From a virus, in the IMG/VR virus record IMGVR_UViG_3300042876_000626, positions 1 through 40,883 of that record: 40,883 nt of DNA; one strand, given 5' to 3'. The position numbers and the translations under genes are program-made. Below the pieces are notes generated by a model. That model saw only the letters and a program-made list of their open reading frames with translations. It had not been told where the DNA came from and made no database searches. Within the stretch, counting starts at the first letter, position 1. Every line of letters begins with the position of its first letter. Shown piece by piece: positions 1,582-40,883 of the stretch.

Positions 1582-1848
1582 TCAGGCCCGCCCCAGCGGG
1601 TCGAGGCCCTTGGCGGTGCGCCAGTCGGTCAGGGTGGCATCGCCGTCCAGGACTACGCGGATCGCCATGACGGCCACCTGCACGGCCTCCTTGCGGACGG
1701 CTGCGGCCGGCTCCTCGAAGGTGGCCTTGGCCAGCTCTCCGACCTCCTCCATCAGGGCCAGCATGGTCACGTTGTCGCCGGGAAACTTGGTCCGGGCGCG
1801 GATAAGCTCGTTCCGAATGTCCCGGATCAACTGGTCAAGATCGCTCAC
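1582..1848 (-). CDS. MazG-like nucleotide pyrophosphohydrolase family protein (88 aa)
   Basis: Starts at GTG 1848, overlapping the primase stop as GTGA, with AGGAGGGGG upstream. An in-frame ATG further upstream (1932) lies inside the primase gene and is not needed. The all-helical protein has the MazG-type metal motif EEVGELAKA (E34, E35, E38) followed by KEAVQVAVMAIR and a closing LDGD. The family hydrolyses NTPs to NMPs and is common in phage nucleotide-metabolism modules. Whether this copy is catalytic is not clear, because the second motif reads ExxQ rather than ExxD. Q is common in short phage members of this group. Confidence 0.75.
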   Translation of the reverse strand: MSDLDQLIRDIRNELIRARTKFPGDNVTMLALMEEVGELAKATFEEPAAAVRKEAVQVAVMAIRVVLDGDATLTDWRTAKGLDPLGRA

Positions 1849-3026
1849 GCTGCCCCCTCCTGCTGTTGTTCTTCGGCCTGCGCCCGCATCAGGGCATCGT
1901 TCAGATCCTCGCCGGGCCGGTCGGATCGCCACACCCTCACGGTGCGGCCCTTGGCCTGGTGCTGGCGGATCGCCTCGGCCAGCTGCTCCTGCGCCTGGTC
2001 GCCCAGGTCGTGGTCGGTGATCAGCACAACCTCGGACACTTCCGGGGGCAGGCCGACCTTGCCCATGTTCGACAGGCTGTAGGCCGCCAGGACGCGGGCA
2101 TCGGGGCGCAGGATCCGGGCGCTTAGCGCGGTCTCGATCCCCTCGGCGATGTAGACGCGGGTGCCGGGCGGGCAGCGGTTCAGGGGCGCGCCCTTGCCGC
2201 CCTTGGGCCCCAGGCCGGAGGACAGGCGGATCGCGCAGCCGTCGCCCCAGGCGTAGACCTTCTTTGCCGGCAGGACCTGCCCCTCGGCCGACGGGTGAGG
2301 CACGCGGATCTTGGTCCAGCGCCCGGTGTCGGGGTCGATCCGCAGCCAGGTGCGGTGCACGGCCACGATCCGGCCCTGCAGGTTTGTCATCGCGGCCAGC
2401 ATGGCGGGGGCGTCGAACTCGATCACCTCGCCGGTGGTCTTGTCCTCAAAGCTGTAGCGGCACTTCGCCATGTAGCGCAGCGCGCGGGGCTGGTGGCCGA
2501 TGGTGGCTAGGTCGATGCCCCGGCCTTTGAGGTAGTAATCGACCGGCGTGCCGGCGATCTTCGGCTCGGCCGACAGCCACATCGCCTCGGCCCGGCGGGA
2601 TGCGCGGTCCTGGTCGCGGCGGGCGGCGGCTTCGGCCTCGGCCCGGCGGGCGCGGGCAGCGGCAAGGGCCACCTCACGCTGGCGCGCCTCGGCCGGGCTG
2701 TCGGTGGCAAGGCCAAGGAAGTGCCGCGCCTCGCGTAGCTGGTCGACCATGTTGGCCAGGCCCAGCCGAAGGCCGATCAGGTCGAAGACGTCGCCATGCT
2801 GGCCGGTGGCAAAGTCTTCCCACTTGCCGGCCTTGCGGCCAGAGGTGTGGATGCAGAAAGACCCGACCGACTTGTCGGCCCGGCCCGGGTTCAGGGTGAA
2901 GTATTTCCCCTTGTCCTCATAGCTGCCCTTGGCGGGCGGGGCGTAGTGATAGGCGAACTCGCCCATGCGGGCGACCAGCATCTCCTTGATCTCCTCGATC
3001 GAGTATGTCTGGCGCTGCCCGCTCAT
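1845..3026 (-). CDS. Toprim-domain primase-like protein (393 aa)
   Basis: Starts at ATG 3026; the longer upstream frame is low-complexity read-through. The C-terminal half has the Toprim signatures: YIAEGIETALS (E295) and VVLITDHD (D338, D340), then GEDLNDAL. The N-terminal region (KYFTLNPGRADK..., KWEDFATGQHGD) resembles the part before Toprim in DnaG/P4-type phage primases, but the CHC2 zinc cysteines are absent. Residues 115-148 form an Arg/Ala/Glu-rich helix, probably a linker. It is expected to lay primers at phage forks together with the downstream P-loop ATPase. Loss of the zinc finger suggests template recognition is handled differently or by a partner. Confidence 0.85.
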   Translation of the reverse strand: MSGQRQTYSIEEIKEMLVARMGEFAYHYAPPAKGSYEDKGKYFTLNPGRADKSVGSFCIHTSGRKAGKWEDFATGQHGDVFDLIGLRLGLANMVDQLREARHFLGLATDSPAEARQREVALAAARARRAEAEAAARRDQDRASRRAEAMWLSAEPKIAGTPVDYYLKGRGIDLATIGHQPRALRYMAKCRYSFEDKTTGEVIEFDAPAMLAAMTNLQGRIVAVHRTWLRIDPDTGRWTKIRVPHPSAEGQVLPAKKVYAWGDGCAIRLSSGLGPKGGKGAPLNRCPPGTRVYIAEGIETALSARILRPDARVLAAYSLSNMGKVGLPPEVSEVVLITDHDLGDQAQEQLAEAIRQHQAKGRTVRVWRSDRPGEDLNDALMRAQAEEQQQEGAA

Positions 3027-3030
3027 GGCG

Positions 3031-3351
3031 TCAGGCCCTGCCCTGCGGGGCCGGAAAGGCCTGGGCGGCCTGGTAGGTTGCGACAAAGGCCTTGGCGGCC
3101 TGGTCAAAGGCCTGCCGTGCATCGGCCTGCGGCTGGCCGTCGCCGGGCCCGGCCTCGATCACGGCGGCATAGGCGCGCATCAGCTGCGCGGTCTCGGCCG
3201 GGGCGATGCCGGCCAGCGCGGATGCGGTGATCTGCAGCAGGCAGGTGGCGGTGGTGATCGGGGGCAGCCCCAGGCTCGTCCCGGCGGTCAGCACCTGGGA
3301 CAGCTGGGCCTGCGCGAAGTGGATGACCATGGCTTGGGCGGACAGGTCCAT
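3031..3351 (-). CDS. Hypothetical early protein (106 aa)
   Basis: Starts at ATG 3351 in a TGATG overlap with the upstream gene; a GTG one codon earlier is also possible. The sequence is Ala/Gln-rich and mostly helical (LSAQAMVIHFAQAQLSQV...). No motif recognised. It lies between the SANT-like gene and the primase gene, so a replication accessory role is possible by position only. Confidence 0.65.
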   Translation of the reverse strand: MDLSAQAMVIHFAQAQLSQVLTAGTSLGLPPITTATCLLQITASALAGIAPAETAQLMRAYAAVIEAGPGDGQPQADARQAFDQAAKAFVATYQAAQAFPAPQGRA

Positions 3352-11758: not shown

Positions 11759-11898
11759 GCTGGCTCTGGCTGATCCCCGCCTTTGCCCTCGGTGCTGTGG
11801 CCGGCGCGCTGTTCATGGCCGCCGCCCTGGTCGACGTGGTCATGAAGATCCAGGACACCCGGGCGCGGGGCTACGGCTACGATCCCCACCGCCCATGA
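11755..11898 (+). CDS. Single-pass membrane peptide (47 aa)
   Basis: Starts at ATG 11755 (ATGA overlap) and ends in an ATGA overlap with the HNH gene. Most of it is one hydrophobic helix (LWLIPAFALGAVAGALFMAA) with a short polar tail. Second small membrane peptide of the rightward operon. Confidence 0.6.
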   Translation: MSWLWLIPAFALGAVAGALFMAAALVDVVMKIQDTRARGYGYDPHRP

Positions 11899-12551
11899 AG
11901 TCCCCCGTTGCGCCCGAAGTGTTGCGCCAACTGCTCCGATACGAGCCGGAGACTGGCAAGCTTTACTGGTTGCCAAGGCCCGTTGCGTTCTTCGGTGACA
12001 CCGAGCGCAGGAGGTCGGCGGCGAACCAGTGGAACGCGCGCCACGCTGGAAAAGAAGCCTTCACTGCTGATAACGGTGAAGGCTATTTGCAAGGCAGCAT
12101 CTTCGACCGACTGTACCGCGCCCACCGTGTCATCTGGTGCCTGATGACTGGCGAATGGCCAACTGCGCTGATCGACCATCGGGACGGCGATCGCGGAAAC
12201 AATAAGTGGAAGAACCTTAGGGCGGCGACGCGCTCCCAAAACAACCGAAATACGTGCAGCCGTCTTGGTTCCTCAAGCAAGTACCTTGGGGTGTACTGGG
12301 AAAAGCAGCGCGGCAAATGGGTGGCAGCCATTAACATCGGGAAGCGCCCTAAGGTCCTTGGGTGCTTTGCTTCCGAGGAAGAAGCCGCCCGCGCCTATGA
12401 TCACGCGGCCAGCCGCGAGTATGGTGACTTTGCTCGGAGCAACTTTGCAATCTCACCGCGCCCCGGCCTTTCGAGGTCGGGGCTTTTTCATTCCGAAACA
12501 GCGTCCGATTCGGACGCAGTCGGACAGTCGGACGGACCCCGAAGGGCCTGA
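11895..12551 (+). CDS. HNH endonuclease with AP2-type DNA-binding domain (218 aa)
   Basis: An HNH core lies at about 76-118: YRAHRVIWCLMTGEWP, then IDHRDGDRGNNKWKNLR and SQNNRN. A C-terminal AP2-like domain follows at about 123-185 (SKYLGVYWEKQRGKW..., GCFASEEEAARAYDHAA, EYGDFARSNF). This is the classic stand-alone homing endonuclease layout of phages. It is less GC-rich than its neighbours, consistent with mobility. The last ~30 residues run through a strong intrinsic terminator and look unrelated to the family; the ancestral stop was probably near codon 187. Confidence 0.85.
   Translation: MKSPVAPEVLRQLLRYEPETGKLYWLPRPVAFFGDTERRRSAANQWNARHAGKEAFTADNGEGYLQGSIFDRLYRAHRVIWCLMTGEWPTALIDHRDGDRGNNKWKNLRAATRSQNNRNTCSRLGSSSKYLGVYWEKQRGKWVAAINIGKRPKVLGCFASEEEAARAYDHAASREYGDFARSNFAISPRPGLSRSGLFHSETASDSDAVGQSDGPRRA
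12461..12488 (+). terminator. Strong intrinsic terminator of the rightward operon
   Basis: CCCCGGCCT-TTCG-AGGTCGGGG forms a 9-bp stem (one G-U pair) with a UUCG tetraloop, followed by CTTTTT. It lies inside the HNH reading frame, about 63 bp before its stop codon. Confidence 0.9.
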
Positions 12552-36648: not shown

Positions 36649-37008
36649 TCAGATCTTGCTCAGTGCGTCCAGCTCGCGGTGCAGGATGGTCAGCTGGTCG
36701 CGCAGCTCGAACGCCCGGTGATAGGCTTCGCCCAACTGGCCGTCGGACGAAAAGCGCAGGCCCTCCCGCACCTCGGCAGTGTTTTCGCTTGGTAGTCTGA
36801 GCCCGATCAGACGTTGGTGCAGATCGACCACGCGGCCGATTGCCATCATGGCCATTTCCTGAGCTTGCACCTGCATGGTGGCGATTTCCTGCAGGATGGT
36901 AGGCTCAGGGGCGGCGACGGGGCCTTCGAAGGGCGCGAGCCTGGTGGCGTCGACGGGCATGCCAATGCCAACTTTGGCGCTCAAGGGGTGCATGGGTTCA
37001 ATCTCCAT
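36649..37008 (-). CDS. Hypothetical protein downstream of large terminase (119 aa)
   Basis: Starts at ATG 37008, overlapping terL by 11 nt. Helical (ILQEIATMQVQAQEMAMMAI, AFELRDQLTILHRELDALSK). Its C-terminal heptads suggest a dimer. No family recognised. A 43-bp gap with a small CCCCT/AGGGG hairpin follows. Confidence 0.65.
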   Translation of the reverse strand: MEIEPMHPLSAKVGIGMPVDATRLAPFEGPVAAPEPTILQEIATMQVQAQEMAMMAIGRVVDLHQRLIGLRLPSENTAEVREGLRFSSDGQLGEAYHRAFELRDQLTILHRELDALSKI

Positions 37009-38695
37009 AGGGGTTCATCGGGTCATACCGGGCGGACAGCCCCCCGGCGGGCTCCATGGGGCGACCGTGATCGCCCTCTCTCCCCGAGGCCTCGCGGGCC
37101 CCGTGGGGGAAACTGATCGGGCTCAGCCCGTTGGCCTTGTGCTGGCTCAAAAGCAGGTATTCCAGGGCGTCCATGACGTTGGCCTCGGTCATCCGCTTGT
37201 CGGGCACCTTGCGCTTGTCGCCACTCGCATCGACCTCATCGGTCCAGACATAGCGGGCCTCAAACCCCCGGATCAGGAACTTGGCACTCGGGTCGATGAT
37301 CAGGCCCGGCTTGCCGCCCTGGACGAACTCCAGCGGGGCCCGCACGGCCTCCAGGCGCGGCTGCAGGCGGTTGGTGCCCAGGCGCTGCGGCCGCACGCGG
37401 AACCCCGCGGCCTGCCCCACGATCTTGTTCCAGGTCGCGTTTTCGTCCGCCGCCTGGCTGGCCCCGTGTTCGCCCGCCATGTCGCCCCAGCCGTCGCCTT
37501 TGCGCAGGTGCGAAAACCGCGCGGCGATCAGCTCGTCCAGGCGGCGGCCGAACTCGGCGGCCATCAGCCGCTCCTTGTCGAAGTGCAGCTCGGCCAGGAT
37601 GGTCCAGTGGAAGGGGGCCGCGAACTGGCCGATCACCGCCGCGCCCTTGAAGCCCTGGTCAAGGCCGAACAGCAGGGGCAGCGACGGGTCCGGCTGGATC
37701 GTCGTCTCGGCCACGTGGATCCGGCGGTTGAACTCGCGGGCAAAGACCGGCTCGCCGGCGCGCAGATAGGTGGTCCGGTTGTAGACCATGCGGCTGGTGA
37801 CGTCGGACTTGCCTGCCAGCTTGTTCAGCGCGATCTGCAGCTCGTAGTAGCCCGGGGCCAGGTTGGCCATGTTCTCCAGCCCGGGCTCGCCATAGCCCGG
37901 CTGCCGGTGGAAACTGATGCGGATCTCGCGCGCGCCTTCGGGCTGGCTTGCCGTCAGCTGCTTGGCGATCTCCGCGCGGCCCTTTTCGTCGTGAAAGACC
38001 TTGAAGGTCCAGTTGTCCTCGTCCGGGGCGTTGAAGTCGCAGTCGATCTGTCCGTAGCTCCGCACGTCGTCGGCATAGCCCTCGAAATGCTTGCGCCCCG
38101 GGTAGCGGTTGATCCGCCCGACGCCGAAGGTCAGGCTGTCCAGCGGGTTGGTGTCGGCCTCGCTGATGTCGAGGTCGGTGCATTCCAGGCCGCGCATCGA
38201 GGCCGCCACGTCGTCGCCGAAGGCCATGAACTCGGCCACCCAGTCGATCTCGCCATGCTCGTCGGCAAAGCGGATGTGGTGGCGCACCGGATCGCCCCGG
38301 CCGCCGGACCAGGTGCCCAGCGACTTCGGGTAGGTCTCCAGGTAGGACGGGATCACCGTGGCCCATAGCTGGCGGTAGGTCTCGCGGGTGAAGAGAACCT
38401 TGTAATACCGGACCCCGTCGATCACCGACCGGGGCATCATCACGGCCCGGCGCAACTTGCGGCGCATCTTCGTGGTGGTCTTGCCGCTGCCGACCGGCCC
38501 CTGGATCGCCACGACGGACGCATCGTCCCAGTAATAGGCCTCGGCGACCGGGCCCGGAAAAACGAAGGTGGCCAGATCTGGCATCTTGCCATCGGCAAAG
38601 TTTCCGTCCAGGCTATCGATCGCCTCGCTTGCCGACAGTCCTGCCAGCATCTCCGCGCGTGCATCGACACCATCGGCGTTCCGGGTCGCGGTCAT
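36998..38695 (-). CDS. terL: Terminase large subunit (565 aa)
   Basis: Start ATG 38695. ATPase domain: Walker A GPVGSGKTTTKMRRK (K72) and Walker B region CTDLDISEAD (E179). Nuclease domain: first acidic residue in LLFGLDQGFKGAAVIG (D346), and further acidic residues near LIIDPSAKFL and NVMDALEYLL. It packages DNA into the procapsid through the portal. The ATPase resembles podovirus P22/T7-distant terminases rather than the classical T7 gp19 signature. Confidence 0.9.
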   Translation of the reverse strand: MTATRNADGVDARAEMLAGLSASEAIDSLDGNFADGKMPDLATFVFPGPVAEAYYWDDASVVAIQGPVGSGKTTTKMRRKLRRAVMMPRSVIDGVRYYKVLFTRETYRQLWATVIPSYLETYPKSLGTWSGGRGDPVRHHIRFADEHGEIDWVAEFMAFGDDVAASMRGLECTDLDISEADTNPLDSLTFGVGRINRYPGRKHFEGYADDVRSYGQIDCDFNAPDEDNWTFKVFHDEKGRAEIAKQLTASQPEGAREIRISFHRQPGYGEPGLENMANLAPGYYELQIALNKLAGKSDVTSRMVYNRTTYLRAGEPVFAREFNRRIHVAETTIQPDPSLPLLFGLDQGFKGAAVIGQFAAPFHWTILAELHFDKERLMAAEFGRRLDELIAARFSHLRKGDGWGDMAGEHGASQAADENATWNKIVGQAAGFRVRPQRLGTNRLQPRLEAVRAPLEFVQGGKPGLIIDPSAKFLIRGFEARYVWTDEVDASGDKRKVPDKRMTEANVMDALEYLLLSQHKANGLSPISFPHGAREASGREGDHGRPMEPAGGLSARYDPMNPYGD

Positions 38696-39021
38696 GTCCG
38701 CACCCCCATGGTCAGGCCACCCCGGCACCCTCTGCCGGGGAAGGGCAGGGCCGCACCCCCCACCCCATTTGCGCCGAACCCCAGTCGCGCCCCAGACAAG
38801 CCGGTCGGGCCGGAATGACCGCATGGGGTCACAGAAGGGGGGAGAGAGACTGGCGCGCGGACGCCCCCCCGGGGGTCGCGGCGGGCGGGCGAGGCCGCCA
38901 GGGCGCGAAGGGGGGTGGGGGTCGGGGCGGCCACCAGGACGCGCCCGATCGGCCCGGCCTGGTCGCGGGACCGCTGATTTTTGATCAGCCGGGCGAGGGT
39001 GGAAAGGGTCAAGGATTTCAA
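38692..39021 (-). CDS. Possible small protein between terminase genes (109 aa)
   Basis: A TTG at 39021 overlaps the small terminase stop (TTGA) with GGAAGGGA upstream, and the frame ends in overlap with the large terminase ATG. These junctions favour translation. The protein, however, is Pro/Gly/Arg-rich after residue 30, with no motif, as expected of a chance GC-rich frame. The alternative is a 320-bp spacer that might hold the packaging site. Confidence 0.35.
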   Translation of the reverse strand: MKSLTLSTLARLIKNQRSRDQAGPIGRVLVAAPTPTPLRALAASPARRDPRGGVRAPVSLPPSVTPCGHSGPTGLSGARLGFGANGVGGAALPFPGRGCRGGLTMGVRT

Positions 39022-39036
39022 CGGCTTGTCCCTTCC
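39009..39036. repeat. Direct repeat flanking the small terminase gene (copy 1)
   Basis: This stretch (core AAGGATTTCAACGGCTTG) closely matches 39681-39708 (core AAGGATTTCAAGGGCTTG), with only a few differences. The copies sit at the end and just upstream of the small terminase gene, 672 bp apart. Confidence 0.75.
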
Positions 39037-39662
39037 GTCCGACTGGCGCTGTCCGACTGGACCGGCGCGGCTTCGCTAACCCCTTGATTTCGTTGGACCT
39101 GTGCAGGCATCGGCGGCGGGCCGATCCGGGACGGTTGCGGGGTGATGTCGCGCGCCTGGTCGCCTGCCCTGACCGCTGCCTGACCCTGCGGTGCCGCGAC
39201 GAAGACCTGCACCGGCGGCGCGGCCACCACGTCCGGCGTGACCTTGCCCAGGCCGTAGCCCACCAGCGCCTCGGCCGCGCGCAGCTGGGCGGTGAAGACG
39301 AACTGGAACGCCGCCAGGCGCTGGCCCATCGACGGCTTGACCGGCGCGCCCTTGTAGCCCGTGGCCCCGGCCTCGGCCCAGGCCAGCACCTGCTCGGTCC
39401 GCGCCAGGGCGGTCAGGAAGGCATCCTCGGTCGAGGCCATGCCCGCCATCTCGATCAGCACGTCCTCGGGCATCCGGTAGCCCTTGGCCGCGCACCAGTC
39501 GCGCAGCTGGCTGGTGGCCTTGCCCCTGCCGCGCGCCGGGCGGCCAGATCCCGGTGCAGGCTCGTCCGGCATGAAGGTCAGCTGCTCGCCCGCCGCCCGC
39601 GCATCCTCGATCCGCTGGGCGGCCTGCCGGGCCAGATCGTCAAACTGGGTGCCCTTCGGCAT
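39018..39662 (-). CDS. Putative terminase small subunit (214 aa)
   Basis: ATG 39662 is preferred to the TTG at 39668 because GAGGGGG lies 8 nt upstream. A helical N-terminal region with GRPARGRGKATSQLRDWC resembles the DNA-binding start of small terminases, with a central helical oligomerisation core (EDAFLTALARTEQVLAWAEA) and a flexible Pro/Gln-rich tail. Position directly before terL supports the call; sequence evidence alone is moderate. Confidence 0.65.
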   Translation of the reverse strand: MPKGTQFDDLARQAAQRIEDARAAGEQLTFMPDEPAPGSGRPARGRGKATSQLRDWCAAKGYRMPEDVLIEMAGMASTEDAFLTALARTEQVLAWAEAGATGYKGAPVKPSMGQRLAAFQFVFTAQLRAAEALVGYGLGKVTPDVVAAPPVQVFVAAPQGQAAVRAGDQARDITPQPSRIGPPPMPAQVQRNQGVSEAAPVQSDSASRTEGTSR

Positions 39663-39680
39663 GGTCAAAACCCCCTCAAA

Positions 39681-39709
39681 TCGAAGGATTTCAAGGGCTT
39701 GACCCTGCC
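39681..39709. repeat. Direct repeat flanking the small terminase gene (copy 2)
   Basis: Second copy of the 39009-39036 repeat, lying between the small terminase start and the first AGCAACG heptamer. Confidence 0.75.
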
Positions 39710-40011
39710 AGCAACGGCACCAGCAACGCCTGACGACAGGACCGTTGCTGGTCCAGCCAGCGAAACCCCCTGCTTTTCTTCTTTCTTTTCAGGAAGATAG
39801 AGGAAGAGAAGAGAAAGGGAGCAACGCAGCAACGCAGCAACGGTCGCGCATGTGATCGCGCAGGCGCGCACACACGAGTGGTGCGCGCGCCTGTACGTGT
39901 GCGCGCGAGAGGCGTTGCTCCGTTGCTGTTCGGCTAAGCGACTGATTGGGAAGGGAAAAACCAGCAACGGCGGCAGCAACGGTCGAAGGTCGTAACCGTT
40001 GCTGCGTTGCT
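39710..40011. repeat. Array of twelve AGCAACG heptamers: candidate origin or packaging site
   Basis: Forward copies start at 39710, 39722, 39820, 39828, 39836, 39963 and 39975. Reverse copies (CGTTGCT) start at 39743, 39913, 39921, 39997 and 40005. Several adjacent pairs have exact 8-bp spacing. The array surrounds a pyrimidine-then-purine tract (39771-39820) and a GC-alternating inverted repeat. It fills a gap of about 517 bp without a convincing gene (39663-40179) between the replication ATPase and terminase. This looks like iterons for a replication initiator, or sites for the small terminase. Confidence 0.8.
39851..39910. other. Alternating purine-pyrimidine inverted repeat inside the heptamer array
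   Basis: CAGGCGCGCAC (39861-39871) is inverted at 39881-39893 as GTGCGCGCGCCTG (2-nt bulge), and GTGTGCGCGCGA (39897-39908) can pair instead with the same left arm. Long CG/CA alternation favours cruciform or Z-form DNA. Confidence 0.6.
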
Positions 40012-40179
40012 GGTCATTTGCGACATTCCGGGCGTCGGAAACTGGATAGACAGGCCATCTGGCCCCGAACCCTTGGCCGCAGGAAGCCCCGCGCAGCGCA
40101 ATGATGGCACCAAACAGGGTCCGGGAAAAGGGTCGCGAAAACCCGTGGCCGATCAGGCCGTTATCCGTGTCAAGCGTTT

Positions 40180-40883
40180 TCATGCGAAGTCTTCGGCCTC
40201 GATCGGGGGCAGCGTGGCGGGGTCAGGGACGCGGTCGCGGTCCATCGGGAACGACAAGAGGCCAGGCATCGACTTGAACGGGATGTACCAGCCGCGCGTC
40301 GGCACTCCGGCAAGCCTGGTGTTGGTGTCAGACGCCCGTGCACCGCTCACTCGGGCGGCGGATTGCTTCCAGACGGTCTTGGCCCATTCGGACTTCTGGA
40401 AGAGGTCCAGGAGGCCCTGGATCGGCGCGTTGGCGACGAAGAGCTCGGCCTCCTGGCCGCTGCCGTAGACGCGCAAGCCTGCGCTCGCCAGCTTGGCGTT
40501 CACCGCCTTGGCATACTCGGCCTTGTCGGCCCAGCCATCGCCGCCCAGAAGGCCCTCTGGCGCGCCGGGAAGCTGGGCTGCGGCCATCAGCCACTGCGCG
40601 ACGGTGTATTGCTCGCCCCGGCGGTAGATGTCGTATTTCTGGGTCAGAAGGTGCATCAGCATGCCGTCGGCGTCGCTCCCGAGCTCGGCCACGTCGGCGC
40701 GAATCAGCTTGGCCACACGGCGCGACCAGCTGGTCAGGGTTTCGGCGTCGGGCTGGCCCTCGTTCAGCGCCATGTCGGCCATGGCAAGGGTGGTGGCCCA
40801 GTTGTCGCCGTTGCGCCCCGAGATGCCCTCGGCCGCGAAGGCCTCACGCCACAGCTCCAGGCGGCGCGCCCAGCTGGGCCAGC
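40180..40883 (-). CDS. P-loop ATPase (C-terminal part; begins at 1393 on the other side of the join)
   Basis: This holds the last 226 or so residues of the ATPase, in the same frame once the 24-bp terminal repeat is collapsed. The segment is helical (MADMALNEGQPDAETLTSW...) and contains no second nucleotide-binding motif. A helical C-terminal domain in this position could bind DNA or contact a partner; that is inference. It ends at TGA 40182-40180, immediately before the gene-poor repeat region that may contain the origin. Confidence 0.75.
   Translation of the reverse strand, partial: WPSWARRLELWREAFAAEGISGRNGDNWATTLAMADMALNEGQPDAETLTSWSRRVAKLIRADVAELGSDADGMLMHLLTQKYDIYRRGEQYTVAQWLMAAAQLPGAPEGLLGGDGWADKAEYAKAVNAKLASAGLRVYGSGQEAELFVANAPIQGLLDLFQKSEWAKTVWKQSAARVSGARASDTNTRLAGVPTRGWYIPFKSMPGLLSFPMDRDRVPDPATLPPIEAEDFA
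40860..40883. repeat. Terminal direct repeat closing the contig (right copy)
   Basis: Exact second copy of bases 1-24. Collapsing the two copies gives a circle of 40,859 bp. Confidence 0.9.

Follow-up and report, generated by a model that had tools for sequence, protein, structure and literature searches.

A heptamer array covarying with the C-terminus of an adjacent helicase-like ATPase is a probable phage replication origin

Classical iteron plasmid origins of the Rep_3/RepA/TrfA type consist of direct iterons of ~17-22 bp in one orientation, and the ori of phage lambda has few and longer iterons, which lie next to a low-GC region inside the initiator gene O. The closest described system is SaPI Rep, which recognises iterons immediately 3' of the gene that encodes it by means of its C-terminal domain and appears to load as two rings (PMC7581432). 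Both the SaPI Rep-ori (SaPIbov1/SaPI5 type) and SCCmec Cch/Cch2 combine an initiator helicase that has a C-terminal DNA-binding domain with iterons directly downstream and a primase partner (PMC7581432). In the PLE satellites of Vibrio cholerae, initiator and iteron origin form modules that are swapped, with covariation between the origin and the part of the initiator that binds DNA; diversity may be favoured there by a nuclease that targets the origin (PMC8263062). A related way of reading short repeats is found in TcpK of plasmid pCW3, a winged-helix protein whose beta-wing in the major groove reads 9-nt tandem repeats at oriT (PMC6137059).

Here, we describe an array of short words in a viral sequence of 40,883 bp (the window, i.e., the whole stretch of DNA that was analysed) and in its relatives. 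The array is very probably the replication origin of a temperate phage, with iterons that would be bound by the C-terminal beta-wing of the adjacent helicase-type initiator in an arrangement like that of SaPI Rep-ori. Judged by analogy, the mechanism is most likely that of SaPI Rep and its ori: a primase and a putative initiator helicase with a predicted C-terminal DNA-binding region are encoded here as well, and the array lies directly 3' of the helicase gene in 55 loci. Unlike SaPIs, the replicon is an alphaproteobacterial phage with its own terminases and not a satellite, the ~12 sites are 7-8 bp long and form a dyad of fixed layout, and close relatives have different words. As in lambda, the iterons are placed beside a low-GC region, within an open frame and near the initiator gene, but this frame is a separate one without protein constraint and the candidate initiator is an ATPase. 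The difference from the classical plasmid origins lies in the words of 7-8 bp, which occur in both orientations. Covariation of an initiator DNA-binding domain with its origin was already known from the PLE satellites (PMC8263062), in which there are two allele groups, a RepA_N initiator and ~30-bp iterons, whereas the present family has 23 words, another type of initiator and differences that can be traced to single residues. TcpK, in turn, is a conjugation accessory protein rather than a helicase. Three aspects are new: the range of word alleles within a single phage family whose dyad layout is fixed, the rule based on a single residue, and a frame that is kept open in the absence of protein conservation; no paper describing this phage ATPase-array family was found in the open-access literature.

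The following course of initiation is proposed. The winged-helix-like C-terminal region of the ATPase would bind each word of 7-8 bp, mainly via the beta-wing (residues ~670-694), and two helicase rings would be loaded at the paired dyad sites, on opposite sides of the centre and in facing orientation. Opening may then occur at the low-GC tract, which lies in one half of the array, after which the Toprim primase encoded upstream would make the primers. The word would act as a tag of replicon identity, with the initiator and all of its sites having changed together many times; therefore, as we propose, related phages and plasmids in one cell would not fire each other's origins.

Genomic context and layout of the array

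The features of the window are as follows.

1845..3122, minus strand: Toprim primase, upstream of the ATPase (domain matches DUF7146 and Toprim_3)
1..~1400 (start approximate), minus strand: 5' part of the ATPase, across the circular junction (Walker A GGKASGKST in frame)
40180..40883, minus strand: 3' part of the ATPase (candidate initiator helicase), cut by the contig end (phrog_21086; SF3/D5-like fold match)
40183..40860, minus strand: C-terminal region of the ATPase (putative DNA-binding), residues 501-726 of the 726-residue open frame (AlphaFold pLDDT 87.7)
40279..40353, minus strand: putative specificity hotspot, ATPase residues 670-694 (beta-wing; covariation with the word)
40315-40317, minus strand: codon of ATPase residue 682, inside the hotspot
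39665..40183, minus strand: open frame of 172 codons (the "corridor") across the array; its ATG overlaps the ATPase stop and it ends just before the TerS start
39710..40011, both orientations: putative iteron array, 12 x AGCAACG (exact word count; layout kept in relatives)
39843..39908, no strand: dyad centre, a GC-alternating palindromic stretch between two inward-facing 8-bp-spaced sets
39770..39819, no strand: poly-pyrimidine/poly-purine tract, candidate unwinding element (lowest-GC part of the array)
39018..39662, minus strand: putative small terminase, TerS (position and co-occurrence with TerL in relatives)
36998..38824, minus strand: terminase large subunit, TerL (phrog_2)

The two ends of the window share an exact overlap of 24 bp (positions 1-24 and 40860-40883) in frame within the ATPase gene and, because the ATPase frame continues through it, the genome is a closed circle of 40,859 bp. 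Since a CI/S24-type repressor, an integrase and an endolysin are all encoded, it most likely belongs to a temperate phage. An HNH endonuclease with an AP2 domain is also found at 11895-12551 (phrog_99, PF13392; AP2 below the cut-off). Along the minus strand, the array follows the genes for the Toprim primase and the ATPase and precedes those for putative TerS and TerL, which agrees with the location that a preceding sequence-only reading had given, i.e., 3' of the primase and ATPase genes and 5' of a small terminase. The array thus separates the primase-coupled ATPase gene from putative terS, whose product had no family match.

The word AGCAACG starts at 39710+, 39722+, 39743-, 39820+, 39828+, 39836+, 39913-, 39921-, 39963+, 39975+, 39997- and 40005-. 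All 12 exact copies in the window fall within these 302 bp (~0.7% of the sequence) and none outside, while in 100 dinucleotide shuffles the entire window contained 5.3 copies on average and never more than 11. The count and density reported by the sequence-only reading were therefore reproduced, the shuffles being the comparison that it had suggested, and the same is true for the grouping of the copies in sets of two to three (four intervals of 8 bp and two of 12 bp), the tract and the palindrome. The GC content of the tract is 0.30 at 39780-39799 and averages 0.34 at the same place in 45 loci, i.e., a dip at +60 to +80 from the dyad centre, for which the average is 0.72. This composition makes the tract a candidate DNA unwinding element. 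GC skew, which had been proposed as a means of mapping an origin, was of no help, as the detrended extremes in the window were at 15.1 and 31.2 kb and left the array unmarked; Rfam gave no match in the array region.

Relatives were collected from viral contigs and genome contigs using searches with TerS, the ATPase tail and ATPase alignments. Related loci are mostly prophages, those with names belong mostly to Rhodobacterales, and the primase-ATPase-gap-TerS-TerL synteny is kept. A survey of 397 genomes of one family returned mostly prophages that were already in the locus set. The words were found by counting k-mers spaced 8/12 bp in each gap; an EM motif search per gap was dropped in favour of this count because it picked low-complexity tracts. 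In 55 distinct loci, the gap between the ATPase and TerS holds 6-13 copies (16 in the low-complexity L018), and the 6-mer core of the word is scarce elsewhere in each locus. The copies inside one phage agree, and 23 different 7-mers occur among the loci, such as AGCAACG (window), TGCAACG, CGCAACG, CACAACG (the commonest), CACGACG, CACTACG, CGCTACA, CCCTACG, CGGTACA and GGGTACA. When the word is numbered as letters 2-8, letters 6-7 (AC) are invariant, and letters 2, 3, 5 and 8 are the most variable. The sites follow a common layout, ++8, --12, ++8, centre, --8, ++12, --, which is a mirror image around the GC-rich alternating centre; in 45 centred loci, they lie at ~-130/-122 (+), -100/-88 (-), -45/-37 (+), +42/+50 (-), +90/+102 (+) and +125 to +145 (-). 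When exact array patterns were used to look in viral contigs for satellites or plasmids with the words but without the ATPase, two known relatives and one chance match were obtained.

Close pairs reveal how the word changes and how tightly it is otherwise kept. In L015, all 12 sites differ from those of the window in letter 2 and the remaining six letters are identical in all 72 comparisons, while the spacers are only 74% identical. A natural exchange is seen between L012 and L019: their words differ, and the two loci are nearly identical (97% in the ATPase core and 96% in TerS) except mainly in a single block that comprises the array together with the C-terminal part of the ATPase. An 11-residue insertion after residue 107 of the window TerS (P0003 numbering) was seen in the TerS of L010, L014, L015, L017 and L018 and was absent in the window and the others. 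The window ATPase is closest to those of L014, L015 and L010, yet its TerS does not have their insertion, and so TerS seems to have been exchanged separately from the ATPase.

Covariation of the word with the ATPase

The register of the word was fixed on the AC anchor before any comparison with protein residues. Word distance was tested with the ATPase-core distance removed in 222 windows of 15 residues from four proteins (ATPase, TerS, primase and TerL) using 2000 permutations. The correlation peaked at ATPase residues 674-688 with r = 0.58, a value reached in none of the 2000 permutations (p = 0.0005), relatedness being corrected through the core distance only. Away from the hotspot, the best values were 0.26 for the ATPase, 0.18 for TerS, 0.24 for the primase and 0.24 for TerL. 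No such signal was found in the ~30 ATPase residues that are nearer to the array than the hotspot or in TerS on its other side, which makes linkage a poor explanation for the covariation. The coevolution that the sequence-only reading had wanted examined in related prophages was thus observed with the ATPase C-terminus and not with TerS or TerL. Of the cognate proteins it had listed, the ATPase is now well supported, as is its iteron-origin reading, through this covariation, which can be followed residue by residue, and through the plasmid module described below.

At the level of single positions, residue 682 and letter 3 had a normalised mutual information of 0.74 (z = 9.3 over all columns), compared with 0.38 for the next best column. 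Threonine or serine at this residue goes with A (39 loci), arginine, lysine or histidine with G (11) and tyrosine with C (4), so that 54 of the 55 loci fit, the exception being L080. Arginine or lysine facing G is a textbook protein-DNA pairing. On the ATPase-core tree, the base at letter 3 changes at least 10 times, and the residue changes with the base in seven of seven independent pairs (p = 0.016, a conservative test). Residue 682 of the helicase therefore largely predicts letter 3. The top columns for letters 2 and 5 (685/682 and 687, respectively) are in the same hairpin as 682 but are weak, and letter 5 is weakly explained by residues. The rule was correct in 8 of 10 family members that were found later (one with a tied word and one with only five copies) and wrong in L123 and L141. 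In several homolog families at ~35% identity it fails: R/K-to-G often still holds, while S/T-to-A does not. Taken together, the comparison of sequences strongly supports the view that the helicase C-terminus sets which iteron is used.

The structure of the C-terminal region was predicted with good confidence (pLDDT 87.7). Residues 682 and 687 correspond to residues 182 and 187 of the C-terminal model, in the short strands 181-183 and 186-188 of the predicted beta-wing, and 685 is in the turn. The full-length model (of L015) matched NrS-1, SaPI5 Rep and D5/E5 helicases (E 5e-7 to 1e-4, prob 1.0, TM ~0.3 on the query), with SaPI5 Rep 7ola at E 2e-5, prob 1.0 and TM ~0.3 on the query in Foldseek. 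Because E and prob are good but TM is ~0.3, the label SF3/D5-like helicase is fair but not firm. At the sequence level, the ATPase matched no solved structure, and Pfam DUF927 scored 16.5 bits, which is under its curated cut-off of 22.6. The C-terminal domain model alone had no PDB match at E <= 0.001, its most relevant one being the TcpK-oriT DNA complex 5vfx, which is weak (E 0.39, prob 0.38). Its matches in BFVD were a protein of cyanophage S-CAM8 (E 2e-6) and a second viral protein, neither with a named function.

It has long been asked how specificity can change jointly in a DNA-binding protein and in a dozen scattered sites. In this family, the question can be approached through several closely related pairs whose words differ, with the sites in a constant layout and with a residue-to-base rule that is testable by single point changes.

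A second, stand-alone ATPase C-terminal domain is encoded by a 259-aa frame of Pseudogemmobacter bohemicus (G004:C4:447700-448480; L238 ~2203-2979). It shares the hotspot residues (SRYLEGIQTRG) and lies beside an integrase-like frame, ~7 kb from the prophage ATPase. It may be an origin decoy or inhibitor, or a remnant.

The same module on Arsenophonus plasmids

The ATPase and array recur on plasmids of Arsenophonus nasoniae. In these replicons of 8-12 kb, a homolog that is ~26% identical to the ATPase is the only recognisable replication gene among 5-9 genes. The plasmids are mostly recorded as linear, most of them with an annotated protelomerase, and paNv_CAN17 is recorded as circular. Directly 3' of the plasmid ATPase, a word is repeated 11-13 times in an arrangement that closely resembles that of the phage arrays, with 12-bp sets outside and 8-bp sets around the centre. 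The recurrence of this module on small plasmids supports a replication role for the array.

Co-resident plasmids have different words: GGTAACA on paPv15 and CTAACAA on paPv13 in strain aPv, and TACAACC on paNv_CAN17 and ATTACAA on paNv_CAN18 in strain aNv_CAN. The ATPases of the Arsenophonus plasmids are 73-92% identical overall and 33-52% in the last 30 residues, and it is in these residues that those of the co-resident pairs differ most. This pattern suggests that the word may keep co-resident replicons apart. If this is true, the family would represent a set of small, mutually orthogonal origin/initiator pairs, and sequence alone could tell which of the related prophages and plasmids are able to coexist in one cell. 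The residue-682 rule does not extend to the Arsenophonus plasmids.

In the Phaeobacter/Leisingera phage-plasmids (ATPase ~27% identical), the gap has 4-5 copies of CGTAAC/CGTTAC-like words, which were not counted as support. The Phaeobacter phage-plasmid pP24_g and the Arsenophonus plasmid paNv_CAN17 (L243 3611-4844; L249 7037-8677) both encode an acyl-homoserine-lactone synthase. Both also carry a LuxR-type or autoinducer-binding regulator alongside the ATPase homologs.

Alternative explanations and the open frame

Initiators often autoregulate, and the array could be a set of operators at which a DNA-binding protein, be it the C-terminal part of the ATPase or a different one, would repress either the operon that encodes it or the late genes. 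The array is indeed situated between early and late genes in one direction of transcription, and a -10-like GCCATTATT/GCCTATAAT element recurs ~70 bp into the gap in several relatives. Nevertheless, the covarying protein is a helicase-like ATPase, and the ~12 dyad sites with their conserved 8/12 spacing and low-GC tract exceed what an operator needs. On the Arsenophonus plasmids, moreover, there is little to regulate, since the array is situated on the 3' side of the ATPase gene and is usually followed by a gene in convergent orientation. We therefore consider this explanation very unlikely.

Packaging was the other possibility raised by the sequence-only reading, which named the small terminase among the candidate proteins. 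The array would then be a pac or cos region, in which TerS binds the words to start packaging. Such pac sites are often in or near terS, and the array is directly 5' of putative terS; however, TerS does not covary with the word, with its best window at the r of 0.18 given above and a partial r of -0.07 given the ATPase C-terminus. The 96% identity of TerS between L012 and L019, despite their different words, speaks against it as well, and paNv_CAN18 and paNv_CH14 have the array without an annotated terminase gene. We regard a packaging site as highly improbable, and binding of the words by the small terminase as not supported.

That the region is simply a gene for a small protein, with the repeats as a by-product, is scarcely credible: the frame is open over the whole gap and its start and stop dovetail with the neighbouring genes, but the three codon positions differ equally with no amino-acid constraint to be seen, the spacing of 8 bp puts tandem copies into different frames, which is incompatible with a protein repeat, and each sense frame of the Arsenophonus arrays is interrupted by 6-14 stops.

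The open frame itself is a real feature of the family. The gap had been called gene-poor, which was wrong as worded since the 172-codon frame spans it, and one sense frame is stop-free over the full gap in 47 of 48 loci (window included), compared with 4.6% expected per locus from dinucleotide shuffles. In these 48 loci, the other two sense frames have 4 and 6 stops on average, and all antisense frames are interrupted. The start codon of the open frame is ATG, GTG or TTG and lies at the ATPase stop or at most ~10 bases from it; except in L077, the frame ends at most ~16 bases from the TerS start. Additionally, all of nine further family members had a frame that stays open for the 380 nt following the ATPase stop codon. 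The 172-aa product (P0001) had no Pfam or PHROG match. Outside the words, the differences by codon position were 459/1990, 449/1998 and 460/1993 (0.231, 0.225 and 0.231), and because the three positions differ equally, there is no detectable conservation of a protein sequence. Judged by these counts, the reading frame is kept open and the protein is not conserved. A conserved protein across the region had been named as the finding that would speak against an origin; the array is indeed crossed by a frame, but no constraint on the encoded amino acids is seen and, since arrays without such a frame exist in Arsenophonus, the reading of the array as an origin survives.

The frame may reflect selection for uninterrupted translation between two co-directional genes, either for translational coupling or for protection from Rho. 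A broader proposal has two parts that have to hold together. The word would be a fast-evolving identity tag set by a few beta-wing residues, such that a new compatibility group would arise when a single amino acid and, in parallel, ~12 sites change; the frame, for its part, would be selected only to stay open for the passage of ribosomes, which would couple terS or block Rho-dependent termination, with no protein made. We consider the arguments for and against this joint proposal to be evenly balanced. If true, it would provide a clear case of a reading frame that is kept open without a conserved protein product.

A GCC(A/T)TAATT or GCCTATAAT-like element, which resembles a promoter -10 box, was observed ~60-75 bp after the ATPase stop and upstream of the array in L005, L008, L012, L019, L020, L025, L049 and L083.
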